Source of the DNA: Claveliimonas bilis
GTDB lineage: Bacteria > Bacillota > Clostridia > Lachnospirales > Lachnospiraceae
NCBI RefSeq assembly: GCF_020892095.1
Contig: NZ_AP024845.1
Coordinates: 2,294,001 to 2,358,000, forward strand
DNA length: 64,000 nt
Direction of reading: 5' to 3'
Position 1 is the stretch's first letter. Each line of letters begins with the position of its first letter. A model generated the notes under the pieces. The model did not search any database, was not told where the DNA came from, and saw only the letters and a list, made by a program, of their open reading frames with translations. This document shows positions 1,718 through 57,149 of the stretch, one piece after another. The position numbers and the translations under genes are program-made.

Positions 1718-1893
1718 CGCTCTGTGGGATATGTATTTGCGCGAAGCGGAAATTGTTGTTTTGGATAAAACTGACGATAAAAAAGAAATGTGAAAATTTA
1801 TCGCTCAATAGAAGTAATAATAGTATAATATCACAAAAATAAAAATATAAATTGTGCATAATTGATGAAAAATAAAAATAGCAGGAAAATATA

Positions 1894-1922
1894 TTGACTA
1901 TTTTACCTAAAAGTAGTAATGT
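1894..1922 (+). promoter_or_regulatory. Sigma-A promoter of the KARI-like gene
   Basis: -35 box TTGACT at 1894-1899, a 17-bp spacer, and -10 box TAATGT at 1917-1922. The predicted transcript start is near 1929, just upstream of the palindrome at 1940. Confidence 0.6.
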
Positions 1923-1939
1923 GATAACAGATATAAGAC

Positions 1940-1953
1940 ATCTGATATCAGAT
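1940..1953. promoter_or_regulatory. Palindromic operator candidate
   Basis: ATCTGATATCAGAT is a perfect 14-bp palindrome located about 10 bp after the predicted transcription start and upstream of the ribosome binding site AAGGAGG. Its position fits a repressor roadblock site. The FadR-type GntR regulator encoded at 4431-5135 is the obvious candidate ligand, but this is inference. Confidence 0.45.
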
Positions 1954-1982
1954 TAGCAAAAAGGGTTAAGGAGGAAAAAGAA

Positions 1983-2969
1983 ATGGCAAACATTTATTAT
2001 GACAAGGATGCGGATTTAAGTCTGGTAACGGACAAAGTAGTGGCAATCGTAGGATATGGAAATCAGGGACGCGCGCAGGCGCTGAATATGAAAGATTCCG
2101 GCGTAAAGAGGATCATCGTAGGAAGCCGTCATGATGGATCTTATGATCAGGCGGAAAAGGACGGATTTGAGGTGTTTCCAATCGCTGAGGCCTGCAAGAT
2201 GGCTGATGTGATCTTCATGCTTCTTCCAGACGAATTTGCACCGAAGATTTTTGAAGAGCAGATCGCTCCTGGATTGGAAAAGGGCAATATTGTTAATTTC
2301 GCTTCCGCCTACAATATTACATTCAAAAAGATTATTCCGCCTGAGTATGTAGATGTTGTTATGGCAGCTCCAAGAATGATTGGAGAAGGAGTTCGTGAGA
2401 TGTATCTAAGAGGAGAAGGCTTCCCAGCATTTGTAGGCGTTGCGCAGGATGCGTCCGGGAAAGCGCTGGAATATGGCAAAGCCCTTTGTAAAGCGATAGG
2501 TTCCACGAAAAAAGGTGCAATTGAGGTATGCTTTGATGATGAAACATGCCTGGATCTGATGACAGAACAGGGAATTTGGCCGATTATCTATCATGTATTT
2601 GTAGAAGCATTTAAACTTCATGTAGAAATGGGACATCCGGAAGAAGCAGTACTGATGGAGGAATACATTTCAAAAGAACCTATGTTCATGATGGAGAAGG
2701 CAGCAGAAATGGGAATGTTCAAACAGCTTCCGTTCCACTCACATACAAGCCAGTATGGACAGCTTAAAAGTTTTGAACTTTTTGATCCGACACAGATTAA
2801 AGAATTTCTCCGCGACAGATATGACAGAATACGCAACGGTGCATTTGCAGAGGAATGGGAGAAAGAACAGAAGGAGAATGATCTGGCGACTCTGAAAGAA
2901 CTGAGCCAAAAGGCAATGGAAAGCGAACTTACAAAGGCAGAAGAACGACTCTTTGAAAAGATTAATTAA
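1983..2969 (+). CDS. Divergent ketol-acid reductoisomerase-like oxidoreductase
   Basis: Protein of 328 residues, the length of class I KARI (IlvC). The N-terminal Rossmann fold carries GYGNQG at 24-29, and the all-helical KARI-type knotted domain begins near residue 185. The acidic metal-ligand pattern D191-x3-E195 and the later E226/E232 region are kept. Two canonical KARI landmarks are altered: the AHG histidine is S108 (FASAYNI) and the lysine of APKGPG is R131 (APRMIGEG). It stands in a GntP/GntR/SDR locus, not with ilvB, ilvN, ilvD or leuA. This suggests an oxidation or isomerisation of a sugar acid or hydroxy acid and not branched-chain amino acid synthesis. The fold call is confident; the substrate is unknown. 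Confidence 0.75.
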   Translation: MANIYYDKDADLSLVTDKVVAIVGYGNQGRAQALNMKDSGVKRIIVGSRHDGSYDQAEKDGFEVFPIAEACKMADVIFMLLPDEFAPKIFEEQIAPGLEKGNIVNFASAYNITFKKIIPPEYVDVVMAAPRMIGEGVREMYLRGEGFPAFVGVAQDASGKALEYGKALCKAIGSTKKGAIEVCFDDETCLDLMTEQGIWPIIYHVFVEAFKLHVEMGHPEEAVLMEEYISKEPMFMMEKAAEMGMFKQLPFHSHTSQYGQLKSFELFDPTQIKEFLRDRYDRIRNGAFAEEWEKEQKENDLATLKELSQKAMESELTKAEERLFEKIN

Positions 2970-2977
2970 TATTACGT

Positions 2978-3012
2978 AAAGGGACGGCGGATCGAACAGA
3001 CCGTCCCTTTCT
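2978..3012 (+). terminator. Intercistronic hairpin, partial terminator
   Basis: AAAGGGACGG at 2978-2987 pairs with CCGTCCCTTT at 3001-3010. The T tract is short, so it may reduce rather than stop transcription into the GntP gene, or stabilise the upstream message. Confidence 0.6.
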
Positions 3013-3036
3013 AAAAGGAAGAAGGGAGGAAAGAAT

Positions 3037-4377
3037 ATGTCTGAAATGGCACAGGTATCATTATGGCTTATTATTTCAATCGTTGTGATTTTGATTTCTA
3101 TTATGAAATTGAAATTAAGTCCAGTTATCGGGTTGATCTTTGGAAGTCTTGTCATGGGGCTTGGATGCGGCATGAATCTGTTAGATACAGCGACAACAAT
3201 TGGAACCGGATTTGGCGACCTAATGGCTGGAATCGGTCTTCCAATCGGTTTAGGCGTTATTTTAGGAAAACTGCTGGAAGAAAATGGAGGCGCTCGTGTG
3301 ATTGCAGAAACGCTGGTAGCAAAAGCCGGCGAGAAATATGCGCTTTACGCTCTTGGATTTGCGGGATTTCTTCTTGCAATACCGGTATTTTTTGATATTA
3401 CTTTTATTATCCTTGTACCTCTTGCAATTGAAGTAAGTAAAACTTTGAAAAAACCTTTGCCATACGCCATTGGCGCTGTAACGATCGGTGCGGCCGGAGC
3501 ACATACTCTGGTTCCGCCTACACCAAATCCTCTTGCAGCTGCACAGATCTTTCATTTTGATCTTGGTATCATGCTTGGTGTAGGGGCAGTTGTCTCCCTT
3601 TTCGTCTATATTATAGGAACAACGATTTATTTTAAAATGCTGGATAAAGGGTTCTGGAATAAAGAAAAAGATGAAACGGGAATTTTGGAAATGAGTGAGT
3701 CAAAGCCAATCCCGGAAGGAGCACCAAGCTTCGGTATGGCTCTGATTCCTTTGCTGCTCCCGGTTGTCTGCATCCTGCTTGACACAGTCAGTACAGCATT
3801 TGGAGTGGATTCCGCTGTACTGTCATTTCTCGCAGACAAAACAATCGCCATGCTCCTTGGAACTCTGGCTGCTTATTTGATCTCTATTAAATCTATTGGG
3901 AAAAATCTGGAAAGTGTAGCGAATAAGGCAGTTGCAGATTCCGGTATCGTTCTTCTGATTACCGGAGCCGGCGGATCGTTTGGAGCTGTGATCAGTGCCA
4001 CCGGATTTGCTGACATCATTGCGGAAAGCTTTACATCAATTGGAACTTCGCCGGTTGTTCTGGTACTGTTTGCCTTTATCATAGCGGTAGTGTTCAGAAT
4101 AGCGCTTGGTTCAGGAACAGTTGCTTCCATCACTTCCATGAACATAATGGCTGGTTTTGCCAGTATGACAACACTGCATCCGGTTTTTATCGCACTGGCG
4201 TGCCTGGCCGGCGGAATCAGTGTTGGACATGTAAATGACAGTGGTTTCTGGGTTGTAACCAACATGTCCGGCTACACTGTAAAGGGAGGACTTAAGTCCT
4301 ACACACTGGCAGGCATATTTATAGCCGTATTCACAATGATTGTTTGTATTGCGGCAGCACTAATCAGCTCCATATAG
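3037..4377 (+). CDS. GntP family gluconate/sugar-acid:H+ symporter
   Basis: Polytopic permease of 446 residues with about 12 hydrophobic segments. Family features include the glycine-rich region GLPIGLGVILGKLLEENGGA near residues 68-87, the VPPTPNPLAAA loop near 160-170, GAGGSFGAVI in the C-terminal half, and GGISVGHVNDSGFWVV near 390-405. GntP proteins import gluconate and related hydroxy- or sugar acids with protons. The gene is preceded by GGGAGGAAAG and lies 67 bp after the KARI-like gene, separated by a hairpin. The neighbouring dehydrogenase and reductoisomerase-like genes suggest that the imported acid is their substrate. The exact substrate cannot be read from the sequence. Confidence 0.88.
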   Translation: MSEMAQVSLWLIISIVVILISIMKLKLSPVIGLIFGSLVMGLGCGMNLLDTATTIGTGFGDLMAGIGLPIGLGVILGKLLEENGGARVIAETLVAKAGEKYALYALGFAGFLLAIPVFFDITFIILVPLAIEVSKTLKKPLPYAIGAVTIGAAGAHTLVPPTPNPLAAAQIFHFDLGIMLGVGAVVSLFVYIIGTTIYFKMLDKGFWNKEKDETGILEMSESKPIPEGAPSFGMALIPLLLPVVCILLDTVSTAFGVDSAVLSFLADKTIAMLLGTLAAYLISIKSIGKNLESVANKAVADSGIVLLITGAGGSFGAVISATGFADIIAESFTSIGTSPVVLVLFAFIIAVVFRIALGSGTVASITSMNIMAGFASMTTLHPVFIALACLAGGISVGHVNDSGFWVVTNMSGYTVKGGLKSYTLAGIFIAVFTMIVCIAAALISSI

Positions 4378-53417: not shown

Positions 53418-54047
53418 ATGTCAGATAAGATTATTGAAAACAACCAGGTAACTATTATGGGGCAGATCGCATCAGGATTTACATTCAGCCACACAGTGTT
53501 TGGAGAAGGATTCTATATGGTGGATGTGCTGGTGCGTCGTCTTAGCAGCTCGCAGGACCGGATTCCGCTGATGATCTCGGAAAGACTGATGGATGTTACG
53601 CAGGATTACACAGGGGAGTTTATTATGGCGACAGGGCAGTTCCGCTCTTACAACAGGCACGATGAACAAAAGAACAGGCTGATATTGTCCGTATTCGTAA
53701 GAGAAGTGTCTTTTATTGATGAAGAGTTGGACGGGGCCAAGACGAATACGATCCTGCTGGACGGATATATCTGCAAACTGCCGGTGTACCGCAAAACGCC
53801 GCTTGGAAGGGAGATTGCCGATCTTCTTCTGGCAGTCAACAGGCCATATGGGAAATCCGATTATATTCCCTGCATCTGCTGGGGGAGAAATGCCAGATTT
53901 GCCTCTTCTTTTGAGGTGGGGGAGCATGTCCAGGTGCTTGGGCGTATACAGAGCAGAGAATACGTAAAACGTCTTTCAGAGACAGAGACAGAAAAGAGAA
54001 CGGCATATGAAGTGTCGGTAAGTAAACTGGAATGTCTGGAAGATTGA
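53418..54047 (+). CDS. Tandem OB-fold single-stranded DNA-binding protein-like protein
   Basis: Protein of 209 residues that appears to contain two OB-fold units: one near 9-100 (ATGQFRSYN, VFVREV) and one near 110-205 (LLDGYICKLPVYRKTPLGREIADLLLAV, IPCICWGRNARFA, RIQSREYVKRL). The second resembles ordinary SSB. It lacks the acidic SSB tail (DDDIPF) needed for partner binding, so it is not the replicative SSB. The start follows GGAGGAAGGG. The insertion sequence lies 70 bp downstream, and its flanking repeat contains the last 36 bp of this gene, which remains whole. Confidence 0.8.
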   Translation: MSDKIIENNQVTIMGQIASGFTFSHTVFGEGFYMVDVLVRRLSSSQDRIPLMISERLMDVTQDYTGEFIMATGQFRSYNRHDEQKNRLILSVFVREVSFIDEELDGAKTNTILLDGYICKLPVYRKTPLGREIADLLLAVNRPYGKSDYIPCICWGRNARFASSFEVGEHVQVLGRIQSREYVKRLSETETEKRTAYEVSVSKLECLED

Positions 54048-54117
54048 CAGACCATGTACCAAACTGCCCTGAAGCAGGCAACGTTCCATTGACATTGCAA
54101 ATGAATAATGATACACT
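54012..54117 (+). repeat. Left copy of a 106-bp direct repeat flanking the IS (target duplication)
   Basis: Identical to 56108-56213 over all 106 bases. It holds the last 36 bp of the SSB-like gene, a non-coding stretch, and a promoter (TTGACA at 54089-54094, TACACT at 54112-54117) that now points into the IS. Confidence 0.9.
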
Positions 54118-56107
54118 CCCGAGTTTGACACTTGTGAAAGTAAAAAGCGGCTACAGACCCAGTATTTATGCGGGCTGTAGCCATTCTCTCTTTGGAAACG
54201 ATTTGTGCTATTTTTTTACTTCTTCTGTTTTGGTGTTTTTTATTATGCTTCGCATGGCTGATTTTGAGATAAATTCATAATCCGTACGAAAGCCAAATGC
54301 CTTGTGTAAATCATCCGTCAGATCGGTTCTCTTGTAAGAAGGAATATAGCCGCTTTCTTTTGACAAAAGTGTTACCTGCATAGAACGAAGGGTGCCCAGA
54401 ATCTCGTTACAGGTATATTTGTTTCCGATTTTTTTCTCAAGCAGTCGGTACACAAGCAGGCTGATATAACATGTAAGGAAATGTGCTTTGATGCGGTCCT
54501 CCCGCCTGACATAGACGGGACGTGCTTCAAAATCCGTTTTCATGATTCGGAAGTTTTCTTCAATTTCCCAACGCTGCCTGTTGATTTTTAAGATTTCCCC
54601 AACAGCGCCTTCGAGATTTGTTATGACCGCATAAAAACCGTCATACGTTTCTTCTTCAGAAATACGTTCCAAATCCAGGTCATATATGTTTTTGCATGCA
54701 ACTTCACCCTGTTGTGTTACGGCAGTAGATTTAATAAAACGGGCTGGGTCATTTTGGTTTTTGCCACGTCTTTTTTTGCCCGGCTGTTCCATCATTTTTA
54801 CAGCGCGTGATATCTGTTGCTCGCGGATCCTTTTCTGGTATGCCTTGTATTTTGGAGAATAGGTTACGATGACGATTTCATCCATGTTTCCATTTACAAC
54901 AGGTACTTCCTTGTAAAAGATTGTTTCGTAAATATCCGGATCGGATTCATCGAGGGTGGATATATCGATGAACTTATCTGAACCAAGTCTGCGAAACTGT
55001 TTTGGATTTAAGGCAATCTGCCGGTCTTCCTCGCGCATCTTCTTTAGAGATTGTGTGATGACATAAGAACGGTTTCCAAAGCTGTTAAATCTTCGGTTTG
55101 ACTGACTGCCCAGTCCAGCATCTGAACAGAAGATAAATTCGCCGCATGCAAAGTCACGTATTATTTTTGTTTCCAAAGGTTTTAAGGTCGTCTGTTCATT
55201 CTGATTTCCCGGGAACACATCAAAAGCAAGGGGAATCCCATCCGCATCCATAAACAACCCCATTGTGACGATGGGATTTGGTCTGTTTTCTTTGCTTTTT
55301 CCATACTTTCTAAAATCATCATCCTGCTCGATTTCAAAGTAATAGTTCGTACAGTCATAGTAGAGAATCTTCTGGTTTCTCGGATGTACGAAGTTTGAAT
55401 TGCGGTACAGCTCCTCCTGGATAAAGTCGGATTCTTCTGCCATAACGGAAAGCGCGCGGTAGATGTTCTGCAGTTCATACTTAGGCGGTTCAAGCAGCGT
55501 CTGGCAGTAAGAGTAACTGCCAAGTTTACTGGAAGGTGCGAGGATTCTTGAAAAAATCTGATCCGTAAGGATTGCGCTGAAATTATAAGTGTATTTGTGG
55601 CGTTTGGAAATCTTTCGACAAATGGAATCAATTTTTAATTCCGTGCACAGTTTTTGAAGAAACAGATATCCAACCTGAAAGCAGCGTTCTTCATTTTTGG
55701 GAATATAAGCGCTTTTTGATAAAGAAACCGTAACGCTGCCTGTTTTAGCGTTGTATTCCATCGTGTCTTTTTCTGCCTCTGATTTTGCCCACGCCATCAT
55801 AGCATCATAATCTCCGGAGAACTGATCTAAGAGTTCGTTGAGTTTTCCGAGTTTTCTATGGATTTGAGTAGCAGTTTTTCCATTGCTTTTACGGTATGAG
55901 CGTTTAATATAGACATCTTTGTTATCTGAATTTCCTGTAAGTGAGATGTACATGTAAAATACCTTCCTTTTCAATATAATCTAATTATAGCACAAAGCGT
56001 ACAAAAGCGCACGTATTATTTTTAAAAATTTGACAAAAAAATAAGCCATGATTGGCTTAAATAAAGGATTTTTGCGATATGTTGTTAAAAAGAAGTGTCA
56101 AACACCC
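54118..56107 (-). mobile_element. IS1634-family-like insertion sequence
   Basis: A 1990-bp element between the two 106-bp direct repeats. Its ends share GTTTGACACTT in inverted orientation (left end CCCGAGTTTGACACTT, right end read in reverse GGGTGTTTGACACTT). It contains a single large transposase gene on the minus strand. Very long, variable target duplications are a known feature of the IS1634/IS1549 group, which fits here. The exact ends may be off by a few bases because the duplication and the inverted repeats meet there. Confidence 0.88.
54208..55953 (-). CDS. IS1634-like DDE transposase
   Basis: Transposase of 581 residues, intact. Acidic catalytic candidates are the aspartate in LYYDCTNYYFE, the one in FCSDAGLGSQSNRR, and the glutamate in RWEIEENFRIMKTDF, matching the DDE pattern with a Y-x-x-x-x-K-like helix near the end. 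The N-terminal part carries a DUF4277/DUF4338-like region. The start at 55953 is preferred because AAGGAAGG lies 8 bp upstream; an ATG seven codons earlier overlaps that site. No frameshift or stop was seen, so the element could still be mobile. Confidence 0.9.
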   Translation of the reverse strand: MYISLTGNSDNKDVYIKRSYRKSNGKTATQIHRKLGKLNELLDQFSGDYDAMMAWAKSEAEKDTMEYNAKTGSVTVSLSKSAYIPKNEERCFQVGYLFLQKLCTELKIDSICRKISKRHKYTYNFSAILTDQIFSRILAPSSKLGSYSYCQTLLEPPKYELQNIYRALSVMAEESDFIQEELYRNSNFVHPRNQKILYYDCTNYYFEIEQDDDFRKYGKSKENRPNPIVTMGLFMDADGIPLAFDVFPGNQNEQTTLKPLETKIIRDFACGEFIFCSDAGLGSQSNRRFNSFGNRSYVITQSLKKMREEDRQIALNPKQFRRLGSDKFIDISTLDESDPDIYETIFYKEVPVVNGNMDEIVIVTYSPKYKAYQKRIREQQISRAVKMMEQPGKKRRGKNQNDPARFIKSTAVTQQGEVACKNIYDLDLERISEEETYDGFYAVITNLEGAVGEILKINRQRWEIEENFRIMKTDFEARPVYVRREDRIKAHFLTCYISLLVYRLLEKKIGNKYTCNEILGTLRSMQVTLLSKESGYIPSYKRTDLTDDLHKAFGFRTDYEFISKSAMRSIIKNTKTEEVKK

Positions 56108-56213
56108 GTGTCGGTAAGTAAACTGGAATGTCTGGAAGATTGACAGACCATGTACCAAACTGCCCTGAAGCAGGCAACGTTCCATTGACATTGCAAATGA
56201 ATAATGATACACT
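56108..56213 (+). repeat. Right copy of the 106-bp direct repeat (target duplication)
   Basis: Identical to 54012-54117. It contains a duplicate 36-bp 3' fragment of the SSB-like gene (56108-56143) that is not translated, and the dapA promoter at its right end. Confidence 0.9.
56185..56213 (+). promoter_or_regulatory. dapA promoter (retained in the duplicated copy)
   Basis: TTGACA at 56185-56190, a 17-bp spacer and TACACT at 56208-56213, followed by a T-rich leader and AGGAGG before dapA. The same boxes occur in the left copy at 54089-54117. Confidence 0.75.
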
Positions 56214-56258: not shown

Positions 56259-57149
56259 ATGGCTATTTTTACAGGTGCCGGGGTGGCGCTGGTTACACCA
56301 TTTCATGAAGATGGAAGCGTGAATTTTGACAAACTGGATGAGCTGATCGACTATCACTGCGAGAATGGAACAGACAGTCTGATCATATGCGGAACAACAG
56401 GAGAGTCCTCTACTTTATCAGAAGAGGAACATATGGAATGTATTAAATTTGCAGTGGAACGCACGAAAAAACGGCTTCCTGTAATCGCCGGAACAGGTTC
56501 CAACGCTACATATACGACCATTGACATGTCAAAAGAGGCAGTGGAATACGGAGTGGACGGACTTTTGATCGTTACTCCCTATTATAATAAAGCAACACAG
56601 AAAGGACTGGCTGCACATTATAAGGCTGTAGCGGAAGAAGCCAAGGCGCCGATCATCATGTACAGTGTGGCAAGTCGTACCGGGCTGAACATTGCTCCGG
56701 AGACAGCGGCAGAGCTGATCCGCGATGTGGACAATATTGTGGGGATCAAGGAAGCTTCCGGCAATATTGCACAGGTAGCGAAGATCATGTATCTGACAGA
56801 CGGGAAAGCAGATCTGTATTCCGGAAATGACGACCAGATCGTACCGCTTTTGTCTCTGGGAGGAAAAGGCGTTATTTCTGTGCTCTCTAATGTGGCTCCA
56901 AAAGAGACCCATGACATTTGTGCAAAGTTCTTTGCGGGAGATGTGAAAGGAGCCTGTGAACTTCAGCTGAAGGCAATTCCGCTGATCGAGCAGCTTTTCT
57001 GTGAAGTGAATCCGATTCCGGTAAAGAAGGCTGTAAATCTGATGGGAATGGAATGCGGAGGACTTCGTATGCCTTTGACAGAGATTTCTCCGGAACATGA
57101 AAAAAGTCTGGCACAGGCAATGAAGGATTTTGGAATAAAACTGGCATAA
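56259..57149 (+). CDS. dapA: 4-hydroxy-tetrahydrodipicolinate synthase
   Basis: Condenses pyruvate with aspartate semialdehyde, the first committed step to diaminopimelate and lysine. Length 296 residues. Motifs: GTTGESSTLSEEEH near 45-58, the tyrosine in VTPYYNK near 134, and the Schiff-base lysine in IVGIKEASGN near 163. The start follows AGGAGG. The IS insertion lies upstream but the promoter survives in the right-hand repeat. A hairpin separates it from dapB. Confidence 0.96.
   Translation: MAIFTGAGVALVTPFHEDGSVNFDKLDELIDYHCENGTDSLIICGTTGESSTLSEEEHMECIKFAVERTKKRLPVIAGTGSNATYTTIDMSKEAVEYGVDGLLIVTPYYNKATQKGLAAHYKAVAEEAKAPIIMYSVASRTGLNIAPETAAELIRDVDNIVGIKEASGNIAQVAKIMYLTDGKADLYSGNDDQIVPLLSLGGKGVISVLSNVAPKETHDICAKFFAGDVKGACELQLKAIPLIEQLFCEVNPIPVKKAVNLMGMECGGLRMPLTEISPEHEKSLAQAMKDFGIKLA

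Follow-up and report, generated by a model that had tools for sequence, protein, structure and literature searches.

An IS1634-family insertion sequence joined to the -10 box of a duplicated, predicted dapA promoter in Claveliimonas bilis, and its promoter-associated relatives

The IS1634 family of insertion sequences (IS), as defined in the passages of PMC2266710 available to us, comprises elements of 1,500-2,000 bp with ends of the form C-----YT, which encode a DDE transposase with a long spacer between the second D and the E and an incomplete YREK motif. Target duplications in most members are 5-6 bp long (PMC2266710), as in the typical elements ISPfe2, ISGka5 and ISTth3 (PMC3281130, PMC8024623, PMC6352166); IS1549 and IS1634 itself are described as leaving long, variable duplications of 8-514 bp, for which, when that account was written, there was 'no mechanistic model' (PMC2266710). 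Here we describe an element of this family in a 64,000-nucleotide stretch of the Claveliimonas bilis genome (contig NZ_AP024845.1, positions 2,294,001 to 2,358,000; hereafter the window, whose numbering is used unless stated otherwise), where it is joined directly to the -10 box of a duplicated, predicted promoter of dapA, the gene for dihydrodipicolinate synthase.

The window element shares its transposase family with ISPfe2, ISGka5 and ISTth3, but not their short duplications. It resembles IS1634 of Mycoplasma mycoides and IS1549 of Mycobacterium smegmatis in family transposase, size class, C...YT ends (positions 7-8) and long, copy-specific duplications; unlike in the clade described below, promoter targeting is not described for these two elements in the passages seen. 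More distant systems offer partial parallels, again as presented in the passages available. ISAjo2 and the IS1202 family are likewise target-specific and lie next to a functional DNA site, always in one orientation, but they belong to another family and use pdif/dif targets. IStrons, which combine an insertion sequence with a group I intron, also insert harmlessly, through RNA splicing instead of promoter duplication. The target repeats of the Neisseria CREE miniature elements likewise resemble a -10 box (PMC9330008); these repeats are 2-5 bp long, however, and are discussed as forming fusion promoters rather than as duplicating whole ones (PMC9330008).

The dapA promoter and the recent insertion in the window

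The element (54118-56108, minus strand) lies between two identical 106-bp stretches, 54012-54117 and 56108-56213, which have no further occurrence across the 3.04-Mb single-contig genome. The last bases of this repeat read TTGACA-17-TACACT, a sigma70-type promoter, and the repeat stops exactly at the -10 box. Promoter copy 1 (54089-54117, plus strand) consists of TTGACA at 54089-54094, a 17-bp spacer and TACACT at 54112-54117, and it both abuts and points into the element; copy 2 (56185-56213, plus strand), with TTGACA at 56185-56190, a spacer of 17 bp and TACACT at 56208-56213, precedes the dapA start codon by 45 nt, counted from the -10 box. A simple promoter scan returned both copies among four sites, with 10/12 matches each, but shuffled sequences average 5.6 sites, and on its own the scan is therefore no proof. 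The assignment is upheld by conservation across the genus: as read from the sequences, TTGACA-17-TANNNT stands upstream of dapA in eight other genomes (L159-L166), nearly unchanged in four, amid surrounding sequence that differs. As read from these motifs, the duplicated stretch is the whole dapA promoter, cut at its -10 box. The element thus landed directly after the -10 box with the promoter duplicated, and dapA (56259-57149, plus strand), the spared downstream gene, would therefore keep copy 2.

The first-pass annotation had described a 106-bp duplication around a 1990-bp element. The identity of the two stretches holds, and both lengths were off by one. In relatives whose ends could be anchored, the outermost G of ...CACCCG on the transposase-5' side (window orientation) belongs to the element whatever base adjoins it, which makes the element 1,991 bp long and the canonical duplications 105 bp in the window (54013-54117 and 56109-56213, plus strand) and 145 bp at a second genomic site. 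The 106th base pair of the maximal repeat is one base equal by coincidence, a coincidence favored by the G that stands just upstream of the repeat in 35 of the 61 copies of the wider clade (clade A, below; p ~1e-10).

The second genomic copy occupies positions 1691912-1693901 of the contig, with 100% identity over 1,990 bp. Its flanks carry another repeat, also exact, of 146 bp (maximal) or 145 bp (canonical). Duplication length is thus long and copy-specific, as the comparison proposed in the first-pass annotation brought out. A genome of the same species (G446) supplies the empty site that it had called for, at both loci. The 106-bp stretch is single there at the window locus, with 7 and 1 mismatches on the two sides (1,400 flanking bases), and at the second locus two matches overlap by 146 bp, as expected of a single copy, with the element part of the query unmatched; a search of G446 for the transposase gave no match at E <= 1e-50. 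Because G446 has single-copy sites without the element, the two insertions are of recent date, the repeats at each locus arose as target duplications, and a chance origin of the window repeat is excluded by the one copy carried at that locus. The outcome named at first pass as a refutation, two copies present before insertion, was contradicted at both loci. The window insertion is recent, being absent from a same-species genome and bounded by identical copies, as had been proposed.

Family membership, also proposed at first pass, is clear from the match of the transposase to the IS1634 model NCBIfam NF033559 (370 bits, cut-off 100). The putative catalytic residues D197, D275 and E462 are invariant in 23 aligned rows, with 186 residues between D275 and E462, and R458, E462 and K469 are present with N replacing Y, an incomplete YREK by our assignment following the motif definition in the available part of PMC2266710. 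The length of 1,991 bp and the two ends, each starting with C and carrying TT at positions 7-8, fit the size range and the C-----YT rule. Duplications of 105 and 145 bp depart from the usual 5-6 bp, which does not exclude the family because PMC2266710, in the part consulted, names IS1549 and IS1634 as exceptions. The long duplications vary from copy to copy, with 105 and 145 bp at the two loci that have empty sites and 13-1,018 bp in the 61 copies of the clade; as in the promoter-targeting clade that we propose, TACACT (54112-54117) abuts the transposase-3' end and the 105-bp duplication extends upstream from it. The IS4 family proper, which has a complete YREK and a duplication of ~10 bp, was rejected, as NF033592 gave 39.7 bits against a cut-off of 115 and the duplication is 105 bp. 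The first-pass reading of a plain long-duplication IS1634/IS1549 element was therefore right as to family and long repeat, and it overlooked the dapA promoter cut at the -10 box.

Target sites across the clade

Relatives were collected as 80 loci from named genomes and further loci from 391 genomes of the class, 54 of which carry the IS1634 family, supplemented by additional copies from six of those 54 genomes and by loci from plasmids, with further copies in a single record. A total of 182 loci were examined. Recognised ends with a repeat pair were seen in 79, and the other 103 lack such a pair, in many cases because the contig ends at the element or the ends are of another type. Five of the 79 were judged by inspection to be mis-bounded and were dropped (L114, L123, L174, L180, L215). 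The terminal-repeat core served to divide the remainder into clade A (TTTGACA and close variants; 61 loci) and group B (TTTCCAA, TTTGGAA, TTTAGAA, TTTCTCA and TTTCTAA; 13 loci). An earlier, narrower extraction of 47 loci gave the same picture. In a transposase tree (FastTree, long branches flagged), from which alone four near-identical copies of one element of genome G102 were omitted, the 57 A rows used all lie to one side of a branch whose support is 95.

At the transposase-3' end of clade A copies, the adjoining hexamer agrees with TATAAT at 5/6 positions or more in 39/61 cases, as compared with 1.8% at background offsets, none of which exceeds 6.6%. At a threshold of at least 4/6 the count is 49/61 (background 10.5%), and 57/61 when a slip of one base is allowed. 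In group B, at least 5/6 positions match in 2/13 loci and at least 4/6 in 4/13. An end rule fixed beforehand was then applied to a fresh set of 49 loci from 397 genomes of the taxonomic family, which after removal of 14 duplicates and 7 loci without a usable end left 28; the joint hexamer matches in at least 5/6 positions in 22 of these, and 14 of the 22 also have a -35 element (at least 4/6) at 16-18 bp. Viral contigs, searched as a further source of fresh copies, yielded none. Of the 103 loci that lack a repeat pair, 57 have a scorable end, and 33 of these match.

These hexamers have the surroundings of promoters. A -35 element (at least 4/6, 16-18 bp) accompanies 27 of the 39 clade A copies with a good -10, as compared with 486 of 3,290 control TATAAT-like hexamers from the window and flanks (odds ratio 13) and 35 of 180 control hexamers that precede a gene by 15-200 nt (odds ratio 9.3, p 4e-9). 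The extended -10 motif TGn is found in 14/39 copies, against 7.4% of controls. Past the joint, the longest frame is directed away from it in a ratio of 48:10 (58 scored; upstream control 28:30), and at the other end of the element an opposite-strand -10 was seen in 0/61 clade A copies. The -35 elements, TGn, frame direction and single orientation therefore point to working promoters used in one fixed orientation; whether promoter activity or the motif is the guide is not proven by these counts, because selection filters the surviving copies. Downstream frames were found at 44 loci, 20 of which were searched in Pfam, and the spared genes include such housekeeping-type genes as dapA and those for IMP dehydrogenase (L034) and carbamoyl-phosphate synthase (L073). 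We consider it very probable that the clade consists of promoter-targeting, promoter-duplicating IS1634-family insertion sequences with sigma70/sigmaA-type promoters as their sites.

Long duplications are more widely spread than this targeting. Clade A duplications span 13-1,018 bp (median 89) and reach at least 29 bp, the distance from the first base of the -35 to the last of the -10 with a 17-bp spacer, in 60/61 copies; those of group B, which does not have the motif, span 43-680 bp (median 125), and it follows that long duplications were not made by selection for keeping promoters. The -10 match was rejected as a trait of the whole family, since two Clostridia subgroups lack it, as do the Mycoplasmopsis relatives, which unlike clade A have long repeats as a rule without a -10 match. 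Genome G392 (L221-L224, L218, L220) holds IS1634 elements of both kinds and so provides a natural control for host effects: one kind abuts promoter-like hexamers, and the other, with core TTTGGAA, has long repeats without such a target.

A possible route to the promoter, and its rivals

In clade A the last base of the -10 stands immediately before the transposase-3' end. The position of the other joint, upstream, varies, with a distance of 29 bp or more in 60/61 copies. The stretch between the joints, containing the -10 and mostly also the -35, is present twice after insertion, and the downstream gene keeps a promoter copy. In standard DDE chemistry the two 3' ends of an element join opposite target strands. 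Applying this strand-transfer geometry to the junctions assigns the joints to strands: the transposase-3' end would attack the template strand just past the -10 box (about -7/-6) and the other end the non-template strand, at a distance of tens to hundreds of bases upstream; filling of the gaps would then copy the promoter and everything between the joints. The template strand at about -7/-6 is unpaired in the RNA polymerase open complex. Because the attacked bond would lie where the template strand is open during initiation, a melted or polymerase-bound promoter is the likely target, and it is in this state that the transposase would find its site. The long separation of the joints, presumably an inherited trait of long-duplication IS1634 elements, would make the insertions nearly harmless, with promoter copy 2 serving the host gene and copy 1 pointing into the element, antisense to the transposase.

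These steps can be combined in a single model, which we advance tentatively and at rather less than even confidence. The transposase would land on an RNA polymerase open complex, joining one end to the melted template strand past the -10 and attaching the second, upstream of the polymerase, to the non-template strand, so that live promoters would be located and duplicated in one step; the variable duplication length would reflect the reach of the second end around the bound polymerase.

Several observations weigh against this model, or against promoter targeting more generally. At the exact joint, 22/61 clade A copies have fewer than 5/6 TATAAT matches; a good -10 is missing from L097 and from four of the five copies of the G102 element (L126 2/6, L145 3/6, L205 3/6 and L210 2/6, as compared with 5/6 in L146), and from the fresh loci L238, L257, L269, L271, L273 and L246. 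The sorting of loci into A and B was made after the data had been seen, though the tree supports it. Repeat lengths have no significant helical phasing (periods 10-11 bp, p ~0.18) and hence give no independent pointer to a protein-wrapped target. The predicted transposase fold contains just a Tn5-like core: a fold comparison aimed at a sigma-like, target-reading part returned, among the best matches, just Tn5-like transposase cores with low TM-scores, a result that says nothing on targeting.

An alternative of real weight, if still a doubtful one, is that the transposase reads the TATAAT motif itself, whatever its promoter activity, and that purifying selection removes copies within genes, so that the survivors are those at real promoters. 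The joint keeps its place relative to the hexamer with base precision, as in ordinary sequence-specific insertion, and selection certainly acts on the surviving copies; against this, the -35 enrichment persists when the controls are TATAAT-like hexamers 15-200 nt upstream of genes (27/39 versus 35/180), TGn is enriched about fivefold, and weak hexamers in good promoters are used, such as TACACT in the window. Selection could also be given the whole task, with random insertion, long repeats and the survival of those copies that keep a promoter. Housekeeping-type genes downstream would suit such a history, as would repeats of 29, 30 and 32 bp that barely suffice for a -35 and a -10. A single-base register is invisible to selection, yet the matches peak at one offset (39/61, background maximum 6.6%), and other IS1634 elements in the same host have equally long repeats and no motif; this explanation is accordingly very unlikely.

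Still less probable, by a little, is an ordinary IS1634/IS1549-type element with no special target, for which the dapA promoter would be a coincidence. Variable repeats of 8-514 bp are indeed cited for IS1549 and IS1634 in the available part of PMC2266710, but a -10-like hexamer is abutted by both genomic copies and by most of the clade, which contradicts a coincidence unless the sets share an unseen bias. That the repeats are older duplications, recombination scars or assembly errors has a negligible chance of being correct: assembly can go astray where a genome carries two identical elements, but the single-copy sites in the same-species genome refute the idea for both copies, and the two loci differ in their repeats and unique flanks. 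Promoter targeting is our preferred reading of the clade, with the open complex as its tentative mechanism.

Other features, further relatives and significance

The imperfect terminal inverted repeats of the window element lie at 54118-54133 (transposase-3' end, joined to the -10 box; CCCGAGTTTGACACTT) and 56093-56108 (transposase-5' end; AAGTGTCAAACACCCG); set against each other as CCCGAGTTTGACACTT and CGGGTGTTTGACACTT, they are equal at 13/16 positions as read from the sequence. At the variable end of the duplications, the 61 clade A copies have no strong motif, just the preference for G upstream of the repeat. The second base of the repeat is also G in 30/61, a weak preference at the non-template-strand joint. 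The transposase gene (54208-55974, minus strand) is intact, as first described, with a frame of 588 codons counted from a TTG; the ATG at 55953, preceded by AAGGAAGG, is the likelier start. A probable -10 of its promoter, TATAAT within TGTGCTATAAT, can be read upstream of the gene at 55984-55989 (minus strand).

A hairpin at 54149-54182 (minus strand), between the transposase stop and the element end, leads into a T-rich stretch on that strand and is a probable transposase terminator. It has fold z-scores of -3.1 (minus) and -1.9 (plus), and is not in the pattern-scan list; it folds better as the terminator of the transposase transcript than of the transcript from promoter copy 1. The pattern scan placed a terminator-like hairpin with a T run inside the transposase-5' end (56042-56059, minus strand), which could block minus-strand read-in. 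Full insulation of the element by terminators was considered and rejected, as this second hairpin is the only one listed near the outer ends and folds no better than shuffles. Since insulation is not supported, transcription from promoter copy 1 may well enter the element, in antisense direction to the transposase. On the far side, the gene for an SSB-like single-stranded DNA-binding protein (PRK05813-like; 53418-54047, plus strand) has its 3' end within repeat copy 1 and stops there whole, in line with the first-pass statement that the neighbors are unbroken.

Some relatives are of note in themselves. In genome G141, three copies of one clade element lie within ~14 kb on contig C11 (L197, L203, L208); the promoter-like target differs from copy to copy, as does the repeat (143, 121 and 112 bp). 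The shortest repeat of the set, 13-14 bp, belongs to a clade member on a Ligilactobacillus salivarius plasmid (L169; NZ_CP089852.1, element ~1789-3845), which lies directly after TGTGCTATAAT; the repeat is too short to keep a -35, and the downstream neighbor is an erm(C) leader region. At the other extreme, the G102 element has exact repeats of 853 and 1,018 bp (L145, L210), beyond the 514 bp cited in the available part of PMC2266710, with weak -10 matches. A distant IS1634 relative on an Aliarcobacter cryaerophilus plasmid (L172; NZ_CP099557.1) has a direct repeat of ~650-680 bp with Crp/Fnr-family regulator genes annotated on both sides, so that most of one gene seems to have been duplicated. 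Genome G237 (L225-L230, L233) has a seven-copy relative that matches the IS1634 model, with ends CTCACATTCAGCATGAATAA and 7-8 bp matching at the ends where seen; this is apparently a short-duplication subgroup that shares its host with a long-duplication one.

Long, variable duplication was already known in the family, and it is the promoter targeting that is new as far as the literature was searched. We found no report of an IS1634 element that targets a -10 box or duplicates promoters, within a search of the open literature by title, start of abstract or passages that covered neither the original IS1549 and IS1634 papers nor ISfinder. A joint anchored at the -10 box provides a fixed coordinate for a model of the duplication, including which strand is attacked where. 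If the proposal is correct, a mobile element enters the promoters of housekeeping genes without silencing them and leaves spare promoters behind. Insertion sites of the clade could then map working promoters in gut Clostridia, and perhaps serve as a promoter-finding tool. The copying of promoters at dozens of relatives suggests how such an element may spread with little harm to the genes of its host.

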